DNA from: an uncultured Bacteroidales bacterium
GTDB lineage: Bacteria; Bacteroidota; Bacteroidia; Bacteroidales; Paludibacteraceae
Direction: 5' to 3'
Length of the DNA stretch: 64,000 nt
Assembly: GCA_902780235.1 (NCBI GenBank)
Contig: CACZEL010000022.1
Coordinates: forward strand, 1-64,000
A model generated the notes under the pieces. That model did not search any database, had not been told where the DNA came from, and saw only the letters and a list, made by a program, of their open reading frames with translations. The position numbers were made by a program, and so were the translations under genes. Positions 42,651 through 63,112 of the stretch are shown piece by piece. Position 1 is the stretch's first letter. The number at the start of each line of letters is the position of its first letter.

Positions 42651-42713
42651 TGGTTATTGATGATTGGTTATTGATGATTGTTTCCTTTCACCTTTCACTT
42701 TTCACCTTTCACC
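42651..42713. repeat. Heptanucleotide array between tRNA-Trp and secE
   Basis: Nine heptamers in unbroken phase: tggttat, tgatgat, tggttat, tgatgat, tgtttcc, then four of the type tttcac(c/t). The word set changes midway but the seven-base period does not. Confidence 0.85.
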
Positions 42714-42720
42714 TTTTAGC

Positions 42721-55261: not shown

Positions 55262-55978
55262 TTATTGCAGTTTTTCAAGTTTGAGCACATATACCTTTTT
55301 CCCCTCTACCCTAAACGTCACATTCCATCCCGCATAGTCCAATTTGTACTCCCTTTGCGGATCATCCTGATACCCCGGACGCGGGTCTTGTGCTAATAAA
55401 TACGTAAGCGCTTCCTTATCATCTCGTGGTAATCCTAGACTTTTCCCGTTCCATTCTATTTCTAATCGCGTATCCTTATGCTCCTCTGCAAAACCGTTCA
55501 GTGCCTCTTCATGGCTGTCCGAAAAACTCAAATACGGCTTGATATCGTATATCGGCGTGCCGTCCAGCACATCTGCACCGCTGACAATAAGTTCAAGAGA
55601 ACCGCTTTCGACTTTTGACTTTTGACTTTTGACTACTTTTACCAATCGCACGCTGGACAGGCCAAGCGGATTCGGACGAAACGGACTCCGCGTCGCAAAA
55701 ACACCCATCCGCTTATTCCCGCCCAACTTCGGCGGCCGTACCGTCGGCGACCAGTCTAACTTATCTCCCTCTCTTGTGGAGAGGGTTGGGGTGAGGTTTG
55801 CCCCCCATATCAACCACAAATGGCTATATCCCTCTATTCCTCGCAAAGCTTCTGCAACCCGATATTCGGGTTCAAAAACGATACGTGTCAAGATAGGACT
55901 TTCTTCCCTGCTCTGTCTCGGAATACCGAACTTATCCGTGTGCCCGTTTCTGGCATATGCAATCACTTTTAACTCCAT
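55262..55978 (-). CDS. trmO: tRNA (adenine-N6)-methyltransferase TrmO/TsaA
   Basis: This 238-residue protein of the TsaA/UPF0066 family methylates t6A37 of tRNA-Thr using S-adenosylmethionine. Family landmarks are ELKVIAYARNGHTDKFGIPR, EGYSHLWLIW, GVFATRSPFRPNPLGLSSVR (SAM site), VSGADVLDGTPIYDIKPYLS and a C-terminal DPRPGYQ. The ATG at 55978 is preferred to an upstream start at 56038 because the extra residues are not family-like and would cross the promoter. Two tracts of repeat DNA are tolerated in frame: a palindromic insertion at 55757-55800 (NLTPTLSTREGDKL) in the loop before the SAM block, and a heptamer array at 55610-55637 (KSQKSKVES). Confidence 0.88.
   Translation of the reverse strand: MELKVIAYARNGHTDKFGIPRQSREESPILTRIVFEPEYRVAEALRGIEGYSHLWLIWGANLTPTLSTREGDKLDWSPTVRPPKLGGNKRMGVFATRSPFRPNPLGLSSVRLVKVVKSQKSKVESGSLELIVSGADVLDGTPIYDIKPYLSFSDSHEEALNGFAEEHKDTRLEIEWNGKSLGLPRDDKEALTYLLAQDPRPGYQDDPQREYKLDYAGWNVTFRVEGKKVYVLKLEKLQ
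55610..55637. repeat. Heptanucleotide array inside trmO
   Basis: Three copies of gactttt and one of gactact encode the surface loop VVKSQKSKVES. Confidence 0.75.
55757..55800. repeat. Palindromic repeat inserted in frame in trmO
   Basis: The segment contains CCCTCTC-ttgt-gGAGAGGG followed by ttggggtgagg and is translated NLTPTLSTREGDKL. Very similar 'LTPTLS.REGE' strings are known to me from dispersed repeats in many unrelated bacteria. Confidence 0.6.
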
Positions 55979-55996
55979 TTTTACGCAAATTTGGCG

Positions 55997-56027
55997 CAAA
56001 ATTACAAAAAAATGCGCATTTATGCAA
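55997..56027 (-). promoter_or_regulatory. Promoter of trmO
   Basis: Minus strand: TTG (56025-56027), 20 bases, TAATTTTG (55997-56004), about 19 bases before the ATG at 55978. Confidence 0.75.
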
Positions 56028-56043
56028 AAAAAATGCAAAAAAA

Positions 56044-56248: not shown

Positions 56249-59200
56249 TTAGAACGGATAACCTATACCGAAATTGAGTCGCAGGGCATCGAGCACCGAA
56301 GGCATGTTATAATAACTGTGAATCGGTTGGTTATAATCCACATTGTAGTTCTTGTCATAGCGGTACGTTTGATAGGGTGCGTGGATACCATAACCCAGAT
56401 CGAGTCGGATAACCAGACCATCCAGATCGAGGCGCAGACCCAGCCCCGTGCCCAAGGCGATCTGTTTGGCGAACTCGGGATTATTGAATACGCCGTCATA
56501 CAGGGTCTCGGGGATACCCAGACGCTCGATATAATCCGCATACCCTGCCGCTTTGAACATATCCGCCGTCGAGAGCCAGTTCCACACATTGCCCGCATCC
56601 ACGAAAGCTGCGCCGAACAGTTTCCACACGATCGGGAAACGCAGTTCGAAATTGGCTTCCAGTTTCACATCGCCGGCATGGAAGAAACTCTGGTTGTATT
56701 TGGCCGAATAGAAATTACCCGGACCGTAGGCATAAGGCGACGAGGCACGCAGACTGTTCGGTCCGCCGCTATAGAACGCTTCCGACAGAGGGGTAAAGAG
56801 GGAGTTACCGACCGGTATGTTCGAGCCTGCATAGAGACGGGTGGCGATCGATACCTTGTCCGTCAGGTTGAACTTGTTTCTCAGTTCCGCCGATAACTTC
56901 ACGAACTGATTGAACGTGATCTTACCTAAGGGTTTGTCTATATCGCCCCATTTATAGCCGAAGGCGCAATAGAGCGCATTGATGAGGTTACCCGCCTCTT
57001 TCACGCCGAGATTCAGGCATGTGTTCACCGCCCGTTTGGCACGGTAGTCATCGTAGATGAAGTTATACCCGATCGAGGGCACGAACTCATCGCTCGCCAG
57101 CACTTTCATCAGTTGCGGGTACTCCGCGGCTTTGCTATACAACTCCTCCGCCTCGGCTTTGACCGTCACTACCGAGAGCGAGAAAGGCGTGAAGGCGTGC
57201 GTGATATACGGATTAAACGGCGAGCGGATGAAATAGGTGAACGAACCGCTCAACTTATGCACGCCGTATCCGCCGGCGATGTTCTCGTACTGATAGCCGA
57301 CCATATAGCGCGTGTCGCCTTCGGGGTTGTTGTCGCCTATCCAATGCAGGTAGGGGAAGATCAGGGACGCGTTCAGACCGAGTTTGTACGTATCCGTCTT
57401 CTTCGGATCACCCGGATGGCGGTCGCGCAAGGCCCAGTAATAGGCGCCGTTGCCCTTGATAGAGAAGGTCTCACCTTTGCCCAACAGGTTCTTCACGCTC
57501 GATTTGAGCGTCAGGTCGGGACCGATACTGTTGTTCGACCGATACGCCACACCGGCGTCTGCCGTCAGTCCGTAGGTACGCGTGATACTGTCACCTCGGA
57601 ACAGTTCGCGACGACGCCAGTCTTTCTCGGCACGCACGCCCAGACCCGACTTGAACAGTTCGCCTTCGAGGATATTATTGTAGTCCCGCTGCGAGAAGAG
57701 CCTCAGCATAACAGTACCGTCCTTGGTCAGTTTATAGTCGGCGGAGAAACTGGACAGCAAACCGGAACTCGTATTGATCTCTGGGTTGTCGGTCAGCGTC
57801 GAACCGATAGTCAGACGCAGTTTGTCTTTGAAGAACGACTTACTGATCGATATATTCATATCATTGGTCTCACCGGCCGCATGTTTAGTCTTGGCGCTAC
57901 TGATGTCGATATCCACCACCTTACCCATTTTCGAGTTGGCCATGGCGGCATTGATACGGCTGTTAATGATGGAGGACAAGGCATAGCCGCTTTGTTGTGC
58001 GGCATCGTTACTGGCTCCCATGTACATACCCGTTGCCAAGAGCGTGGCCGCCAATCCTTCGCGTGTATCTTCGTCCAACAGAGCCAACTCATGCGTGATC
58101 GCCTCGTCGTCTGGGGCCTCGAGGAAGAAACCGATACTGCCCAGACCGATCGAGTCCAGTGCGCCGGTAACCCGCACACCGGTGGTAAAATCGACCCGTC
58201 GCGTCTCTTCATCTTCGGCCTGCACGTCGGCTTTCACTTGCTGCGAAGCAGAGACATGCAGTTGGGTCTGTCCCAAGGGACCGTCAAAATCCACATGACT
58301 GCCCGAATCAATACGGAATGGCATGATCGGGTACGCTTTGGGTGAGTAACGGACCACGCCGTCATCCACATCCAACCGACCGCCTAAGTCCAACGCGCCG
58401 TCGGCCACGCCGTACCGGGCATGTACCGTACCGTGCGGTTTGACTTGCGCCAGGTTCTTCTTATCAATCGGATAGGTGATATCCGTTGTCGGCAGCACCG
58501 TCACATCCACATCGGCAATGATGCTGTCGAGCGAACCCGTCACCGTGCCTCGGATATCGGTTGCTAACTCGCCATATACGGGGAAAGGACCGCCTTGGGG
58601 CAACTTAGCCGGCGCAAAACTGTCCGCAGCAAGCGTGATATCGAGGCGCATTCTGTCCAGATCCAGACCGCCGGTCAAGGCTACAAACGTGCTGTCCGCC
58701 GCGTAGATCGGCAGACCGTTCAGGTCCACTTTGTTATGTTGCATCACGATCGGGGTCTCCCCCAGACCGATCTGCACCTCATAGGGTCTGTAGAGCGCTT
58801 TCACGCCCAAGGGGCGCACCTCCGCAGAGATATCTGTTTTAGATGGCAAACCGTCCACCGATGCCTGTGCCCTCATCGCGCCCTCGAGATCGATATCTTC
58901 GAGCGTTACGAAACTGTTCACCAGTTCGAGCGGGATATCATCCAACTGCACATCGGCGCGCAGGGCGTTGGGATAAAGGGTCGAGGGTGCTATCTGCAGG
59001 TCGATATCATGATTGCCCAAGTCCTTGTTTTCATAGACGATACTGTCCAGTTTCAGTTTTCCGTCGCCGTACAGGTCGCGTCCTTCCCGTCTCAGGTCCA
59101 ACTGAGCTGAAGCGTTCGTGCAGAGGTCATAAAAACTCATCGCCCCGTCGGTCAGACGCGTGTCCGCTTGCAGCTTCGCCTGCGTCTCTCCTTCCGTCAT

Positions 59201-60829
59201 GAGCAGCGACAAAGCCGTTTGGATCTGAGGCAGACGCATGTTGGTGAGTTGGAAGGTGAAAGGAGAAAGGTCAAAGGTCGTTTGATCGGAGTCCGAACGC
59301 AAGGCTACCGACAGTTCGTTGAAGTCCACGCCCGTGCTGTCGATGATGGCCTGTATCGGACTGCCTTTGCGCAAGGTAATGTCCGCACTCAGCGCCGGGA
59401 TCTGCCGGCGGATCGTATCGAGCATCGTCAGGTCCTCCAGCGTCGTCAAACGGCTTATCACCGTCGAGTCCGTCACGGTCTGCACAAGCGGTAAGATCTG
59501 ATCAATCAAGGTAAACAGCGGCATCGGCGACTCCACCGAAGCCTCCAGACCCGGCATCGTCAGATCGAGCGAGGTCTCGTCGTCTGTCGATCCTTCGAAC
59601 GTGGTATGCGACAGGTTGAAATCATTGTACTGCGCTTCGTCTAAGTGCAGTTTAACATGCGAGCGTAGCGGCTTTTTCGGATCGATGCCCCTACCCTTGG
59701 CTTCGAGGTCACCCGCCAAGACCACACGGGTCGAGTCGCCTAAGAAAGGCGTCAGATTGACCCGCTCGATATGCACTTGTGCGTCATAGGCCTCGTGCTC
59801 GATATCGTAGGAAGCACGCAGACGTGCCTTGCTGCCTTGATAGGTTGCGTCGCCCTCCACATTCACGCAAAGGGTCTCGATATCCATATTGGTCGACCGA
59901 AGGTCGGCAGTCGCACCGATCTCGTCCGAACGGGCATGCAGCCCGTTGCTTGTGATGAGGTTCTTATTCAGATCGACGCAGGCATTGCCGTGGATCGTGT
60001 CGAAAGGCAGATGTAGAGAACCCAGATCAAAAGTAAAATCGCCCACCTCCAGTCGTTTGGCGTCGTACAGGTTTCCGCCTACATCCGCCAACACGTCCGT
60101 TGACAGATAGTTCGTACGGATATCCATGCCTAAGGGGGTCAGACGAAAATGCACATTCCGCATGATGCCGTCCGTCACGTCGTACGCCATCCGCAGAGGC
60201 GTCGTGTCTTGCGCCGTCATATCCGGAGTCGTCTCCCGCAGGTCGATGCCCACGAACGTGTCATCGAGGCGCAAGCCGTTGAGCGGGTACTTGCCTTCGG
60301 CAATCACCACCTCCGGACTCGTCAAGGCCAAGCGTTTGGTGACCACATCCACGCCCACCGCCTCGATCAGGCTGTCGGAGTGAAAGGTGGTCGTTTCCAA
60401 TTGCATTTGGTCAATCACAATGGGCATATTTAAGATTTTCTGAATACTGAAAACCGAGTCCTGACCACTTGTTTTCGCTATCGCTTTCAGTCGCAGAGAG
60501 CGCGTATAGACCAGGGTGTCCTTTCCGCGATGACCGATAAAAAGGCTGTCGATCGCGATCTCTAAGGGCAGGTCCGCTTCACCTTTATAAGCGCTGTAGA
60601 GCACTTTGGGCGAATGATGGAAGGGGGACAGATAGAGCGAGTCGAGGTCTATATCATAGTCGGTTTTCTCATTGGCGATCGCGACCCCTTTGTCCAGCAC
60701 CGCCTTACGGGCAGATGGCGTCACGACCACTACGGTTGCCGCTATCAACAGCAGCAACACCAGACCCGTCACCGTGCCTAATAAAGCAACCGGGATCTTC
60801 CACCAAAGGCCTCTCCTTTCAACTTTCAC
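56249..60829 (-). CDS. TamB-like translocation/assembly protein fused to an Omp85 (TamL/BamA-type) barrel
   Basis: This is a 1526-residue protein. A single N-terminal membrane helix (about 10-36) anchors it in the inner membrane. A very long beta-rich region (about 37-1063) is TamB-like, ending in the family's DUF490 features: GPLGQTQLHVSASQ, TREGLAATLLATGMYMG, FFKDKLRLTIGSTLTDNPEI and FSADYKLTKDGTVMLRLFSQ. From about 1064 the sequence becomes an Omp85 barrel: LTLKSSVKNLLGKGETFSIK, GGPNSLRASSPYAYGPG (1355 onward), GDVKLEANFELRFPIVWKLF, GAAFVDAGNVWNW and QIALGTGLGLRLDLDGLVIR, ending in Phe. TamB and TamL are normally separate proteins. POTRA domains are not seen. One chain would thus bridge both membranes and help insert outer-membrane proteins or carry lipids. 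It is 10 bases after the 60840 gene's stop and is the last gene of that transcript. Confidence 0.82.
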   Translation of the reverse strand: MKVERRGLWWKIPVALLGTVTGLVLLLLIAATVVVVTPSARKAVLDKGVAIANEKTDYDIDLDSLYLSPFHHSPKVLYSAYKGEADLPLEIAIDSLFIGHRGKDTLVYTRSLRLKAIAKTSGQDSVFSIQKILNMPIVIDQMQLETTTFHSDSLIEAVGVDVVTKRLALTSPEVVIAEGKYPLNGLRLDDTFVGIDLRETTPDMTAQDTTPLRMAYDVTDGIMRNVHFRLTPLGMDIRTNYLSTDVLADVGGNLYDAKRLEVGDFTFDLGSLHLPFDTIHGNACVDLNKNLITSNGLHARSDEIGATADLRSTNMDIETLCVNVEGDATYQGSKARLRASYDIEHEAYDAQVHIERVNLTPFLGDSTRVVLAGDLEAKGRGIDPKKPLRSHVKLHLDEAQYNDFNLSHTTFEGSTDDETSLDLTMPGLEASVESPMPLFTLIDQILPLVQTVTDSTVISRLTTLEDLTMLDTIRRQIPALSADITLRKGSPIQAIIDSTGVDFNELSVALRSDSDQTTFDLSPFTFQLTNMRLPQIQTALSLLMTEGETQAKLQADTRLTDGAMSFYDLCTNASAQLDLRREGRDLYGDGKLKLDSIVYENKDLGNHDIDLQIAPSTLYPNALRADVQLDDIPLELVNSFVTLEDIDLEGAMRAQASVDGLPSKTDISAEVRPLGVKALYRPYEVQIGLGETPIVMQHNKVDLNGLPIYAADSTFVALTGGLDLDRMRLDITLAADSFAPAKLPQGGPFPVYGELATDIRGTVTGSLDSIIADVDVTVLPTTDITYPIDKKNLAQVKPHGTVHARYGVADGALDLGGRLDVDDGVVRYSPKAYPIMPFRIDSGSHVDFDGPLGQTQLHVSASQQVKADVQAEDEETRRVDFTTGVRVTGALDSIGLGSIGFFLEAPDDEAITHELALLDEDTREGLAATLLATGMYMGASNDAAQQSGYALSSIINSRINAAMANSKMGKVVDIDISSAKTKHAAGETNDMNISISKSFFKDKLRLTIGSTLTDNPEINTSSGLLSSFSADYKLTKDGTVMLRLFSQRDYNNILEGELFKSGLGVRAEKDWRRRELFRGDSITRTYGLTADAGVAYRSNNSIGPDLTLKSSVKNLLGKGETFSIKGNGAYYWALRDRHPGDPKKTDTYKLGLNASLIFPYLHWIGDNNPEGDTRYMVGYQYENIAGGYGVHKLSGSFTYFIRSPFNPYITHAFTPFSLSVVTVKAEAEELYSKAAEYPQLMKVLASDEFVPSIGYNFIYDDYRAKRAVNTCLNLGVKEAGNLINALYCAFGYKWGDIDKPLGKITFNQFVKLSAELRNKFNLTDKVSIATRLYAGSNIPVGNSLFTPLSEAFYSGGPNSLRASSPYAYGPGNFYSAKYNQSFFHAGDVKLEANFELRFPIVWKLFGAAFVDAGNVWNWLSTADMFKAAGYADYIERLGIPETLYDGVFNNPEFAKQIALGTGLGLRLDLDGLVIRLDLGYGIHAPYQTYRYDKNYNVDYNQPIHSYYNMPSVLDALRLNFGIGYPF
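59250..59277. repeat. Heptanucleotide array inside the TamB-like gene
   Basis: Four heptamers tggaagg, tgaaagg, agaaagg, tcaaagg encode part of a beta strand (SPFTFQL). Confidence 0.65.
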
Positions 60830-60843
60830 CTTTCAACTTTCAG
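60816..60843. repeat. Heptanucleotide array across a gene junction
   Basis: Four heptamers ctttca(a/c/g) cover the start codons of the TamB-like gene and the last codons of the gene before it. Confidence 0.7.
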
Positions 60844-61697
60844 AAGCTTCTCTGAACACCAAACTTCAATCCGTACAAACCGGGCGTGAAATGACTGGAC
60901 AGGAGGTTCGACAATTTACCCGAGAAAACGATGATATCGTTCGAATATTCCTTGTGTCGCAATCCGGTCTCGGGGTCCTGATAGAAACGTGTCGAGCCGC
61001 TGTAACCGAAACTCATGATCGAGAAGAAAACCTGGAATGTTTTCTTTTTGCTGAACTGGTAGGTGATCACCGGCGACACCTGTGCGCCGTAGGTCACGTT
61101 ATGCCGCAGTCCCTCGTAATCGGTACCGGTCACCTTACCGTCCATCACGCGCGGAAACTCCATGCCGGCGAACACACGTGCCTCCAACCATATCCCCACT
61201 TTGCCGTCAAAAAGGGTCTTCATCCGGTAGCGCATATACGGCGACACCTCCCATGATCCGTGCATCACACGCAGGTCCTCGGTGTATTTGGCCCCGTCCA
61301 GAGCGACATAGGAATAGGTCGTATAAGTGTCCTGATACGAACCGCCGAAACGCATACCCAGGTAATAGCGCTCTTTGAGACGCCAACCGATCTCAGGCGT
61401 TAGGGCAATCGACCAGCCGTTCTCTTTCTTGTCCGACCGAGAGTCGTGATGGAAATAGATATCGAAATTATACCCGTAGTACAGTTTCTGTTTCCACAAG
61501 GGTATCTCTTCCTCTTGAGTTGCCACACTGTCCTCCACCGTCTCTATTGTCCGTGTCTCACCTGCTACTTTCGCTACCGAAGCCAGACCGTCCACGATAT
61601 GATCGTCCTCAGCCCGGCAAGTTGAAAATTGAAAATTGAAAATTGACAGGAAGAAAAGAACGAGAATCCCTTTCACCTTTAACCTTTCACCTTTCAC
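60840..61697 (-). CDS. Outer-membrane beta-barrel protein of unknown function
   Basis: This 285-residue protein has a signal peptide (about 1-28, FLSIFNFQFSTCRA), part of which is encoded by a gaaaatt heptamer array. The mature part alternates aromatic and polar residues as in a beta-barrel (KLYYGYNFDIYFHHD, GWRLKERYYLGMRFGGSY, TFQVFFSIMSFGYSG) and ends in Phe (LKFGVQRSF), the outer-membrane insertion signal. It has about ten predicted strands, similar in size to small OMP_b-brl porin-like proteins. It overlaps the antiporter gene by 4 bases and is followed by the TamB-Omp85 gene, which may help assemble it. Confidence 0.75.
   Translation of the reverse strand: MKGERLKVKGILVLFFLSIFNFQFSTCRAEDDHIVDGLASVAKVAGETRTIETVEDSVATQEEEIPLWKQKLYYGYNFDIYFHHDSRSDKKENGWSIALTPEIGWRLKERYYLGMRFGGSYQDTYTTYSYVALDGAKYTEDLRVMHGSWEVSPYMRYRMKTLFDGKVGIWLEARVFAGMEFPRVMDGKVTGTDYEGLRHNVTYGAQVSPVITYQFSKKKTFQVFFSIMSFGYSGSTRFYQDPETGLRHKEYSNDIIVFSGKLSNLLSSHFTPGLYGLKFGVQRSF
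61624..61644. repeat. Heptanucleotide array in a signal-peptide coding region
   Basis: Three perfect copies of gaaaatt encode the core of the signal peptide (SIFNFQF) of the 60840-61697 protein. Confidence 0.75.
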
Positions 61698-61704
61698 TTT
61701 TCAC
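61670..61704. repeat. Heptanucleotide array at an overlapping start/stop
   Basis: Five heptamers ctttcac, ctttaac, ctttcac, ctttcac, ttttcac contain the ATG of the outer-membrane protein gene and the stop of the antiporter gene. Confidence 0.75.
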
Positions 61705-63061
61705 CTCCCTCTTCGTGCTTATCATTCTCACTCATGTTCGTCAGGAACAGGTCCACCACGCGTTTGGTAACCACGGTCTTGCGAACGGCGTGACGTACCT
61801 TGTCGGAATGCGCCATGAACTTCTCTTCCGAACCCTCCGAAACGGCGTTCTCCGCTTGCTCCACCTCTTGCTCACGCGCATCGATCTTGGTCTTCAGACG
61901 CGAGGAAGCATGCTTGTAGAGGAAATTATAGCAGGGAACGGTCGTCTTCATGATATACGGAGTGAGGAAGGTTGTCAGCACAGAGGCTGCTACAATGATC
62001 GGATAGATAGCAGGATCGGTCACGCCGAGTTTGCTTCCGAGCGCGGCAATGATAAATGAGAACTCACCAATCTGCACGAACGAGAAACCCGTGCTCATCG
62101 CGTCTTTCATCGTCTCGCCGCCCCACCAGCAACCGAGCGTACCGAACACGATCATACCGACGATGATCACGATCGACACGAACAGGATCGACGGCCAATA
62201 TTCGAGTAGAGATGTGGGGTTGATCATCATACCGACGGAGACGAAGAAGATCGCCGCGAACACATTCTTCAGCGGCGCCATCAGTTTCTCGATCCGGTGC
62301 GCCTCCAGGGTCTCGGCTAACACCATACCCATTACGAATGCACCGAGTGCGCTACTGAAACCGGCTTCCTCTGCTGTCAGGACCATCCCTAAGCACAGAC
62401 CCAAGGAAAGAATGATCAGCGTCTCATCGTTCAGGTACGGACGAACCTTACGAATCAAGGTCGGTATCACCAATATACCTACCACGAACCAAACGACCAA
62501 AGTCACGGCCAATACGCCCACTTTCTTGAGCAGCTCCACGCCCTCGAAACTATTCTTCACCGCGATACTGGACAGCAATACCAACAGCACGACGGCGACG
62601 ATATCCTCGAGAATCAGGATACTCGTTGCGCCCTTCACGAACCGAGCCTTACTCAGCCCCGCCTCATCGATCGCTTTCATCACGATTGTAGTACTGCTCA
62701 TACAGAGCATCGCTGCGAGGAAGAGCGAGTTCATGTTGTCCAACTCGGCAAAAATACCGACGCCGTACCCCAACAGCAGCATACCGCCGATGATAGTGGC
62801 GGCACCGATAAGCGCCGTCTTGCCGCTCTCAAACAGGTTCTTCAAACGGAACTCCAGTCCGATACAGAACAGCACGAAAAGCACACCGATATTGCCCCAC
62901 GCTTCCACGTTCTCGTGGTTAACGATGTTCTCGCCGAACAAGTTCGGGCCGACCAAGATACCGGCTACGATGTATCCCAATACAACCGGTTGCTTCAGCA
63001 ACTTAAACAGCAGACTCACAATGCCTGCCGTGATCATCAAGATATATAAATCGTGTACCAT
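61694..63061 (-). CDS. CPA2-family cation:proton antiporter (KefB-like)
   Basis: The ATG at 63061 (MVHDLYILMITAG) gives 455 residues; an upstream start at 63085 is possible. There are about 12-13 hydrophobic segments, with family blocks KQPVVLGYIVAGILVGPNLF, GVLFVLFCIGLEFRL, SSTTIVMKAIDEAGL, LILEDIVAVVLLVLLSS, LGAFVMGMVLAETLEAHRI and GFSFVQIGEFSFIIAALGS. It exchanges Na+ or K+ for H+ across the inner membrane. No C-terminal TrkA-N domain is present; instead a charged tail of about 60 residues follows. It is the first gene of the antiporter-OMP-TamB series. Confidence 0.9.
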   Translation of the reverse strand: MVHDLYILMITAGIVSLLFKLLKQPVVLGYIVAGILVGPNLFGENIVNHENVEAWGNIGVLFVLFCIGLEFRLKNLFESGKTALIGAATIIGGMLLLGYGVGIFAELDNMNSLFLAAMLCMSSTTIVMKAIDEAGLSKARFVKGATSILILEDIVAVVLLVLLSSIAVKNSFEGVELLKKVGVLAVTLVVWFVVGILVIPTLIRKVRPYLNDETLIILSLGLCLGMVLTAEEAGFSSALGAFVMGMVLAETLEAHRIEKLMAPLKNVFAAIFFVSVGMMINPTSLLEYWPSILFVSIVIIVGMIVFGTLGCWWGGETMKDAMSTGFSFVQIGEFSFIIAALGSKLGVTDPAIYPIIVAASVLTTFLTPYIMKTTVPCYNFLYKHASSRLKTKIDAREQEVEQAENAVSEGSEEKFMAHSDKVRHAVRKTVVTKRVVDLFLTNMSENDKHEEGGEK

Positions 63062-63112
63062 AATTGCAATTCGGCGGGAAACCAATCCCGCCGAACTAAA
63101 TAAAAAATTCTT

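Follow-up and report, generated by a model that had tools for sequence, protein, structure and literature searches.

A POTRA-less TamB2–TamL2 fusion in Paludibacteraceae, a probable natural single-chain translocation-and-assembly module

In an uncultured member of the Paludibacteraceae (Bacteroidales), a TamB-type protein and an Omp85 outer-membrane barrel are, judging from the sequence, encoded by one frame, in which an N-terminal membrane anchor and a TamB-type body run directly into a barrel that lacks POTRA domains. The gene lies in a window of 64,000 nucleotides (assembly GCA_902780235.1, contig CACZEL010000022.1, positions 1 to 64,000), and comparison with related genomes confirmed at the sequence level that the single-chain fusion is real. 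The same comparisons established the domain order, the junction, the loss of POTRAs and lipobox, the grouping of the barrel with a particular set of relatives, and the co-existence of the fusion with canonical TamB and TamL. The protein is probably a natural single-chain translocation-and-assembly module (TAM), a fused TamB2–TamL2 pair in which the pairing of TamB strand and barrel has been made permanent and POTRAs have become dispensable. The features of the locus are as follows.

56249..60829, minus strand: TamB2–TamL2 fusion gene, 1526 aa; alignment made with 37 further complete fusions
60722..60811, minus strand: N-terminal hydrophobic signal-anchor region, about residues 7-36 (hydropathy)
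57596..60769, minus strand: TamB2-like periplasmic body and C-terminal pseudosubstrate segment, residues 21-1078 (TamB2 profile)
57566..57595, minus strand: junction between TamB2-like and barrel segments, residues 1079-1088 (10 aa)
56252..57565, minus strand: Omp85/TamL2-type barrel, residues 1089-1526, with a final Phe (TamL2 profile)
60840..61697, minus strand: 285-aa outer-membrane-type barrel protein, candidate client or partner (signal peptide by eye)
61694..63085, minus strand: Na+/H+-exchanger-type antiporter (PF00999, 202 bits)

The frame opens with a GTG codon at 60829, its stop codon ends at 56249, and none of its 1526 codons is an internal stop. The uninterrupted TamB-type/Omp85 chain described in the first-pass annotation thus holds near residue 1064, where that annotation had placed the junction, as it does elsewhere, and the sequence blocks that it quoted were all located (GGPNSLR at residue 1355, GDVKLE at 1386, FVDAGN at 1409, and GLGLRLDL at 1462). 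The fusion point itself stood, with its position given slightly too early: the stretch resembling TamB2 proteins extends to residue 1078 (position 1522 of 1543), and the one resembling TamL2 proteins starts at residue 1089 (position 362 of 773). The proposed inner-membrane anchor was borne out as an N-terminal hydrophobic segment, and its placement in the inner membrane is presumed. The top 19-residue hydropathy window begins at residue 18 (2.60), the runner-up across the whole chain reaches 1.28, and on this hydropathy scan alone the window copy has a TamB-type signal anchor. For comparison between copies, 48 fusion loci were fetched, and five duplicates (identical over the last 600 residues) and six copies cut at the 5′ end were removed, leaving 37 which with the window make 38; near-identical copies stay in this set, as does one sequence (L044) whose start was called too late.

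The C-terminal part matches Omp85 profiles, as had been proposed: PF01103 covers residues 1307-1524 with 58.6 bits (cut-off 24). The TamL model NF052279 aligns residues 1085-1526 with profile positions 335-747 of 747 at 308 bits, below its cut-off of 400; a full-length match above 400 bits was thus not obtained, and the barrel half alone was matched. The annotated absence of POTRAs was likewise upheld, as no POTRA model matched the window copy and the TamL alignment begins only at profile position 335. Positions 362-773 of 773 of a TamL2 profile match the fusion barrel with 286.5 bits. Arg 1361, the conserved L6 arginine, and the final Phe are present in all 38 aligned fusions; we take this arginine to be the counterpart of the BamA VRGF/Y motif. 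When solved structures were searched by sequence with the fusion, no significant TamB or TamA match was returned, and BamA appeared at E 0.41.

In the TamB half, PF04357 (TamB) gave no match in the window copy; it scored above its cut-off in 13 of the 48 fusions among the matches listed for a draw of 81 genomes of the genus, and matched 3 of the 17 fusions of set A1. Of six other fusions scanned singly, four passed the cut-offs of both the TamB and the Omp85 model within a single chain, and no POTRA model matched in these six or in set A1. Against a profile built from 16 TamB2 proteins, the window fusion scored 320.9 bits over five segments that lie between residues 21 and 1078, versus 25.2 bits for a canonical TamB profile made from nine sequences of the genus; this contrast is partly built in, because the TamB2 reference proteins, which are encoded beside TamL2 genes, were chosen for their likeness to the N-terminal part of the fusion. 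In the gaps between the five segments, 577 TamB2 positions face 96 fusion residues, and the body of the fusion is therefore shorter than that of its split relatives (residues 1-1078, compared to 1490-1621 aa for split TamB2), which makes its presumed reach across the periplasm less certain. An extra stretch, of 144 alignment columns after residue 407, is found in 29 of the 38 aligned fusions and is lacking in the window copy; body length therefore varies.

At the junction, the last 21 TamB2 positions and the first 361 TamL2 positions, which comprise the lipoprotein signal and the POTRAs, have been lost, and ten residues are too few to accommodate a POTRA or another signal peptide. No second hydrophobic signal or lipobox was found in the chain. 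With no TamL2 signal of its own, the barrel would need to be exported together with the rest of the protein.

The fusion is an addition to the TAM and Omp85 equipment of the cell, since canonical TamB, a TamL lipoprotein, and BamA are all retained. The same genome encodes a canonical TamB of 1492 aa (contig C11; PF04357, 149 bits), a BamA of 867 aa (contig C18; 303.9 bits, cut-off 297.15), and, in answer to the earlier suggestion that a separate TamL/TamA gene be sought, a TamL lipoprotein of 750 aa (contig C7; 664 bits) in which a POTRA was matched and the lipobox recognized by eye. Replacement of the canonical TAM by the fusion was accordingly rejected. A TamB match was obtained in 75 of the 81 genus-draw genomes (in G338 the sole match is the fusion), and a full-length TamL in at least 69, of which 41 carry the fusion. 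Contig C12 encodes one more Omp85 protein, of 504 aa (L038:5967-7481, minus strand; NCBIfam Omp85_fam, 282 bits, cut-off 200), which is too short to leave room for POTRAs beside a barrel.

On profile and tree evidence, the source of the fusion is a second TamB–TamL pair that Bacteroidales encode in an operon, here called TamB2–TamL2. In a tree of 103 barrel rows, from which duplicate loci and one partial row (L137) were left out, 17 fusions form one clade (100*), which is joined by 16 of the 17 operonic TamL2 rows (99*), apart from TamL; the remaining row (L126) falls elsewhere. The grouping of fusions with operonic TamL2 recurred in a 67-row tree with other rows (100*), which argues for shared ancestry with TamL-type barrels. 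Both were quick trees, in which the TamB part was not used and the stem of the fusions is long (1.56). Canonical TamB and TamL were rejected as the source on both trees and on profile scores (320.9 vs. 25.2 bits for the TamB half, 286.5 vs. 132.2 bits for the barrel). Common ancestry with operonic pairs of other Bacteroidota was unsupported, and because all 12 pairs taken from beyond the order fell elsewhere in the 67-row tree, TamB2–TamL2 is a name given by arrangement and does not denote orthology with the Flavobacterium johnsoniae proteins.

Among split pairs with measured spacing, 10 of 15 overlap, the overlap being exactly 4 bp in 6, although spacing depends on the start codon chosen. Because tamL2 in split relatives often begins before the end of tamB2, fusion would have required loss of the boundary between the genes together with deletion of the TamL2 lipoprotein signal and POTRA domains. 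One Paludibacteraceae relative has an unusually short TamB-like protein (1175 aa, L113:4053-7580) whose gene overlaps a TamL gene (L113:7553-9862) by 28 bp. Among the fusions themselves, the 103-row tree nested those of families f2 and f101 among those of Paludibacteraceae, which would suggest transfer between families, whereas in a test with full-length fusions a single Paludibacteraceae clade was not rejected (p-AU 0.57). When full-length fusions are placed on a tree, those of genera g140, g141, and g142 are interspersed with those of g1.

The arrangement of the fusion can be compared with that of two-protein systems. Partnership of TamB with TamA or TamL has been established by experiment and cryo-EM (PMC12800296, PMC12045153), TamL being the Bacteroidota counterpart of TamA (PMC12045153). 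In E. coli TamAB as described in PMC12800296, TamA β1 is paired, in the hybrid state, with the final TamB strand, TamB loop LP5 meets TamA extracellular loop 1 (ECL1), and POTRAs 1-3 contact TamB. Like this system, the fusion has an Omp85 barrel and a TamB body that is presumably anchored in the inner membrane; however, the E. coli system consists of two proteins, with three TamA POTRAs and both hybrid and non-hybrid states (PMC12800296), whereas the fusion is one chain with no POTRA. In F. johnsoniae, a 22-strand hybrid TamL–TamB barrel was modelled; TamB and TamL are separate proteins there and TamL is a lipoprotein with POTRAs (PMC12045153), whereas the fusion has neither lipobox nor POTRA. 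F. johnsoniae and other Bacteroidota likewise have a second operonic pair, TamB2/TamL2, with one gene starting before the stop of the other (PMC12045153). The words “fusion” and “fused” are absent from the main text of that paper. In Borrelia burgdorferi, TamB C-terminal strands were modelled as completing an Omp85 barrel, but the proteins are separate and the barrel is that of BamA with its POTRAs (PMC13382580). Omp85 proteins classed as noNterm, patatin (PlpD), and WD40-like resemble the fusion in that their N-terminal region is missing or bears other domains, yet none as described has a TamB body or inner-membrane anchor (PMC4104836). No description of a natural TamB–Omp85 fusion was found in searches of an open-access library.

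We propose that the N-terminal helix of the fusion serves as an inner-membrane anchor and that its TamB body would form a lipid-binding β-groove across the periplasm, the last strand of which would turn, via about ten residues, into barrel strand β1. The pairing of TamB strand and barrel, which is reversible in E. coli TamAB, would thereby become a permanent intramolecular hybrid barrel. If LP5 lies on the outer side, the end of TamB and the start of β1 would both be periplasmic, and a link of ten residues would therefore suffice; with docking made covalent, POTRAs may be dispensable. The likely job of the protein would be phospholipid movement, assembly of particular outer-membrane proteins, or both. 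A more specific version, which we hold only tentatively, is a TAM locked in the hybrid-barrel state, in which the last TamB strand and β1 form a hairpin within a permanently enlarged barrel (about 18-22 strands), POTRA-less and continuous from inner to outer membrane, and specialized in this genus for the neighbouring outer-membrane protein.

A fusion of TamB-type and Omp85 parts in many genomes argues that both parts work together. To this extent, the proposal that the fusion is direct evidence of partnership is sustained; it is not the first such evidence, since experiment and cryo-EM preceded it (PMC12800296, PMC12045153). A conserved, POTRA-less, one-chain TAM suggests that function is possible with permanent strand pairing and without POTRA docking, which bears on cargo delivery by TamB, on the standing of the hybrid barrel as working state or side state, and on the purpose of POTRAs. 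The fusion is also a target for structural work that needs one gene only, and it supplies a natural stoichiometry control. As what seems to be a one-piece version, from ruminant gut bacteria, of two proteins that ordinarily meet between the membranes to build the outer one, joined beside the known pairing point of a related pair, it could help test how such machines work, and the small outer-membrane protein linked to it is a candidate dedicated client.

The fusion is common within the genus of the window and rare beyond it. The earlier suggestion to look for it in related genomes proved fruitful: comparing barrel-only to full-length matches of the TamL profile revealed it in at least 48 of the 81 genomes of the genus draw, and it was further found in at least 11 of 150 in a family draw (four genera), in 5 of 295 in an order draw (including two further Bacteroidales families), and in 1 of 296 in a phylum draw, this being the window's own genome. 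These are metagenome assemblies, some far from complete, and absence is weaker evidence than presence. Among the genus-draw matches listed, barrel-only matches mostly begin at TamL profile positions 325-339 (264 and 266 in G158 and G182), and the fusion frames measure 1366-1680 aa in 45 genomes and are shorter (935, 953, and 472 aa) in three. Sixteen relatives came out of a scan of named genomes, each with the complete architecture and each among the 37 sequences kept, although the patterns used were derived from the fusion itself and so favoured close kin. All are Paludibacteraceae or Bacteroidales metagenome assemblies, and a ruminant gut site is named for 6 of the 16; five more have RUG names, which presumably mark rumen genomes.

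The 285-aa gene sits 10 bp upstream of the fusion gene and is in turn overlapped by 4 bp by the antiporter gene, which is a neighbour in several fusion loci. The outer-membrane model OMP_b-brl_2 weakly matched 4 of 14 homologues of the 285-aa protein (best E 8e-4) and did not match the window copy; all 14 end in Phe. A search of solved structures with this protein returned one unrelated chain only (E 0.099). Among the genus-draw matches listed, the protein is present in 42 of 48 fusion carriers and in 2 of 33 non-carriers (G344 and G360; Fisher p 4e-14, kinship not corrected). In 12 independent pairs, it changes with the fusion in about 9.9 and against it in 0.1 (median p 0.002, range 0.0005-0.07). 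Both genes are on one contig in 36 of the 42 co-carriers, at adjacency-compatible distances in 34 of the 36, and ORF maps revealed three arrangements: the 285-aa gene is mostly upstream, in G181 (L150) downstream on the same strand, and in G356 (L288) convergent. Genes resembling RND-type efflux pumps, as judged from ORFs by eye, lie immediately ahead of the fusion at two other loci (L144 and L290, from G192 and G340).

This association suggests the 285-aa barrel protein as the best candidate for a client or partner in the window's genus. It also raises the possibility, which we regard as rather unlikely, that the fusion is a device reserved for the assembly or secretion of a single outer-membrane protein encoded next to it, i.e., a two-gene client system and not a general machine for lipids or outer-membrane proteins. 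Co-occurrence, the concordant independent pairs, and adjacency in three arrangements all favour such a device. However, joint gain or loss of one cassette, without any contact between the proteins, would yield the same co-occurrence, and the G173 copy, one of the 42, has an in-frame stop. Moreover, a profile of the 285-aa protein, run on 27 genomes, was positive only in G193: there was no match in seven of the eight carriers scanned from outside the genus (G732, G799, G101, G223, G192, G303, and G224; G193 being the eighth), nor in the five scanned of the six genus carriers without the protein (G160, G340, G158, G338, and G354; the sixth is G349). The neighbour was for this reason rejected as a universal client. 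We favour a general TAM-like role for the fusion, with the 285-aa protein as its putative preferred client or partner in this genus.

A single-chain TAM also supposes that the chain stays whole. Export as one chain followed by cleavage in the charged linker near residues 1071-1088 (DWRRRELFRGDSITRTYG in the window), which would yield an ordinary non-covalent TamB–barrel pair, appears improbable. The charge of the linker and its differing length in 5 of the 38 fusions (four longer, by 2, 7, 9, and 9 residues, and one shorter, by 3) would suit such processing, whereas residues 1050-1105 are of identical length in the other 33, and a released barrel would have neither a POTRA nor a lipid anchor to hold it to TamB. 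The fixed 1:1 ratio of TamB to barrel put forward in the first-pass annotation assumes that post-translational processing does not occur.

It is still harder to credit that the fusion is a degenerate relic, a non-functional TAM paralogue retained in some genomes. Its distribution is indeed patchy: a TamL tree built from 69 members of the genus shows at least 12 changes of presence on its starred branches, a count that missing pieces of assemblies may inflate, and no fusion was found, among the matches listed, in genomes as near to completeness as G159, G175, and G233. However, there is no stop inside any of the 48 genus-draw fusions among the matches listed, Arg 1361 and the C-terminal Phe are invariant, mean column identity over residues 430-1526 is 77% (17 copies), and the neighbour gene has been retained despite changes of arrangement. 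The TamL sisters G164 and G233 are close; the former has the fusion (L138:6380-11110) and the neighbour protein, and neither was found in the latter among the matches listed, a contrast that is a candidate for recent gain or loss of a cassette. Finally, although a single miscalled base could join or split frames where neighbouring genes overlap by 4 bp, as in 6 of 15 split relatives, an assembly or gene-calling artefact joining two adjacent genes can be dismissed, because many separately assembled species genomes share the junction and their missing POTRAs and lipobox are not explicable by a lost base.

Repeated sequence is found in and around the locus. Five near-copies of the initial ~30 residues of the 285-aa protein occur in its own genome (two on C23, two on C1, and one on C16), and the signal-peptide region of this protein therefore seems to consist of repeated sequence. 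Tandem heptamers of the GAAAGGT type lie at 60816-60841, 61670-61702, 42685-42717, and 59251-59276, two of these at gene junctions beside the fusion; 10 matches were counted versus 0.01 expected. Similar short in-frame inserts are seemingly present, as judged by eye, within genes of the same genome, namely TrmO (55262-56038), MurG (L038), and TamB (L039).
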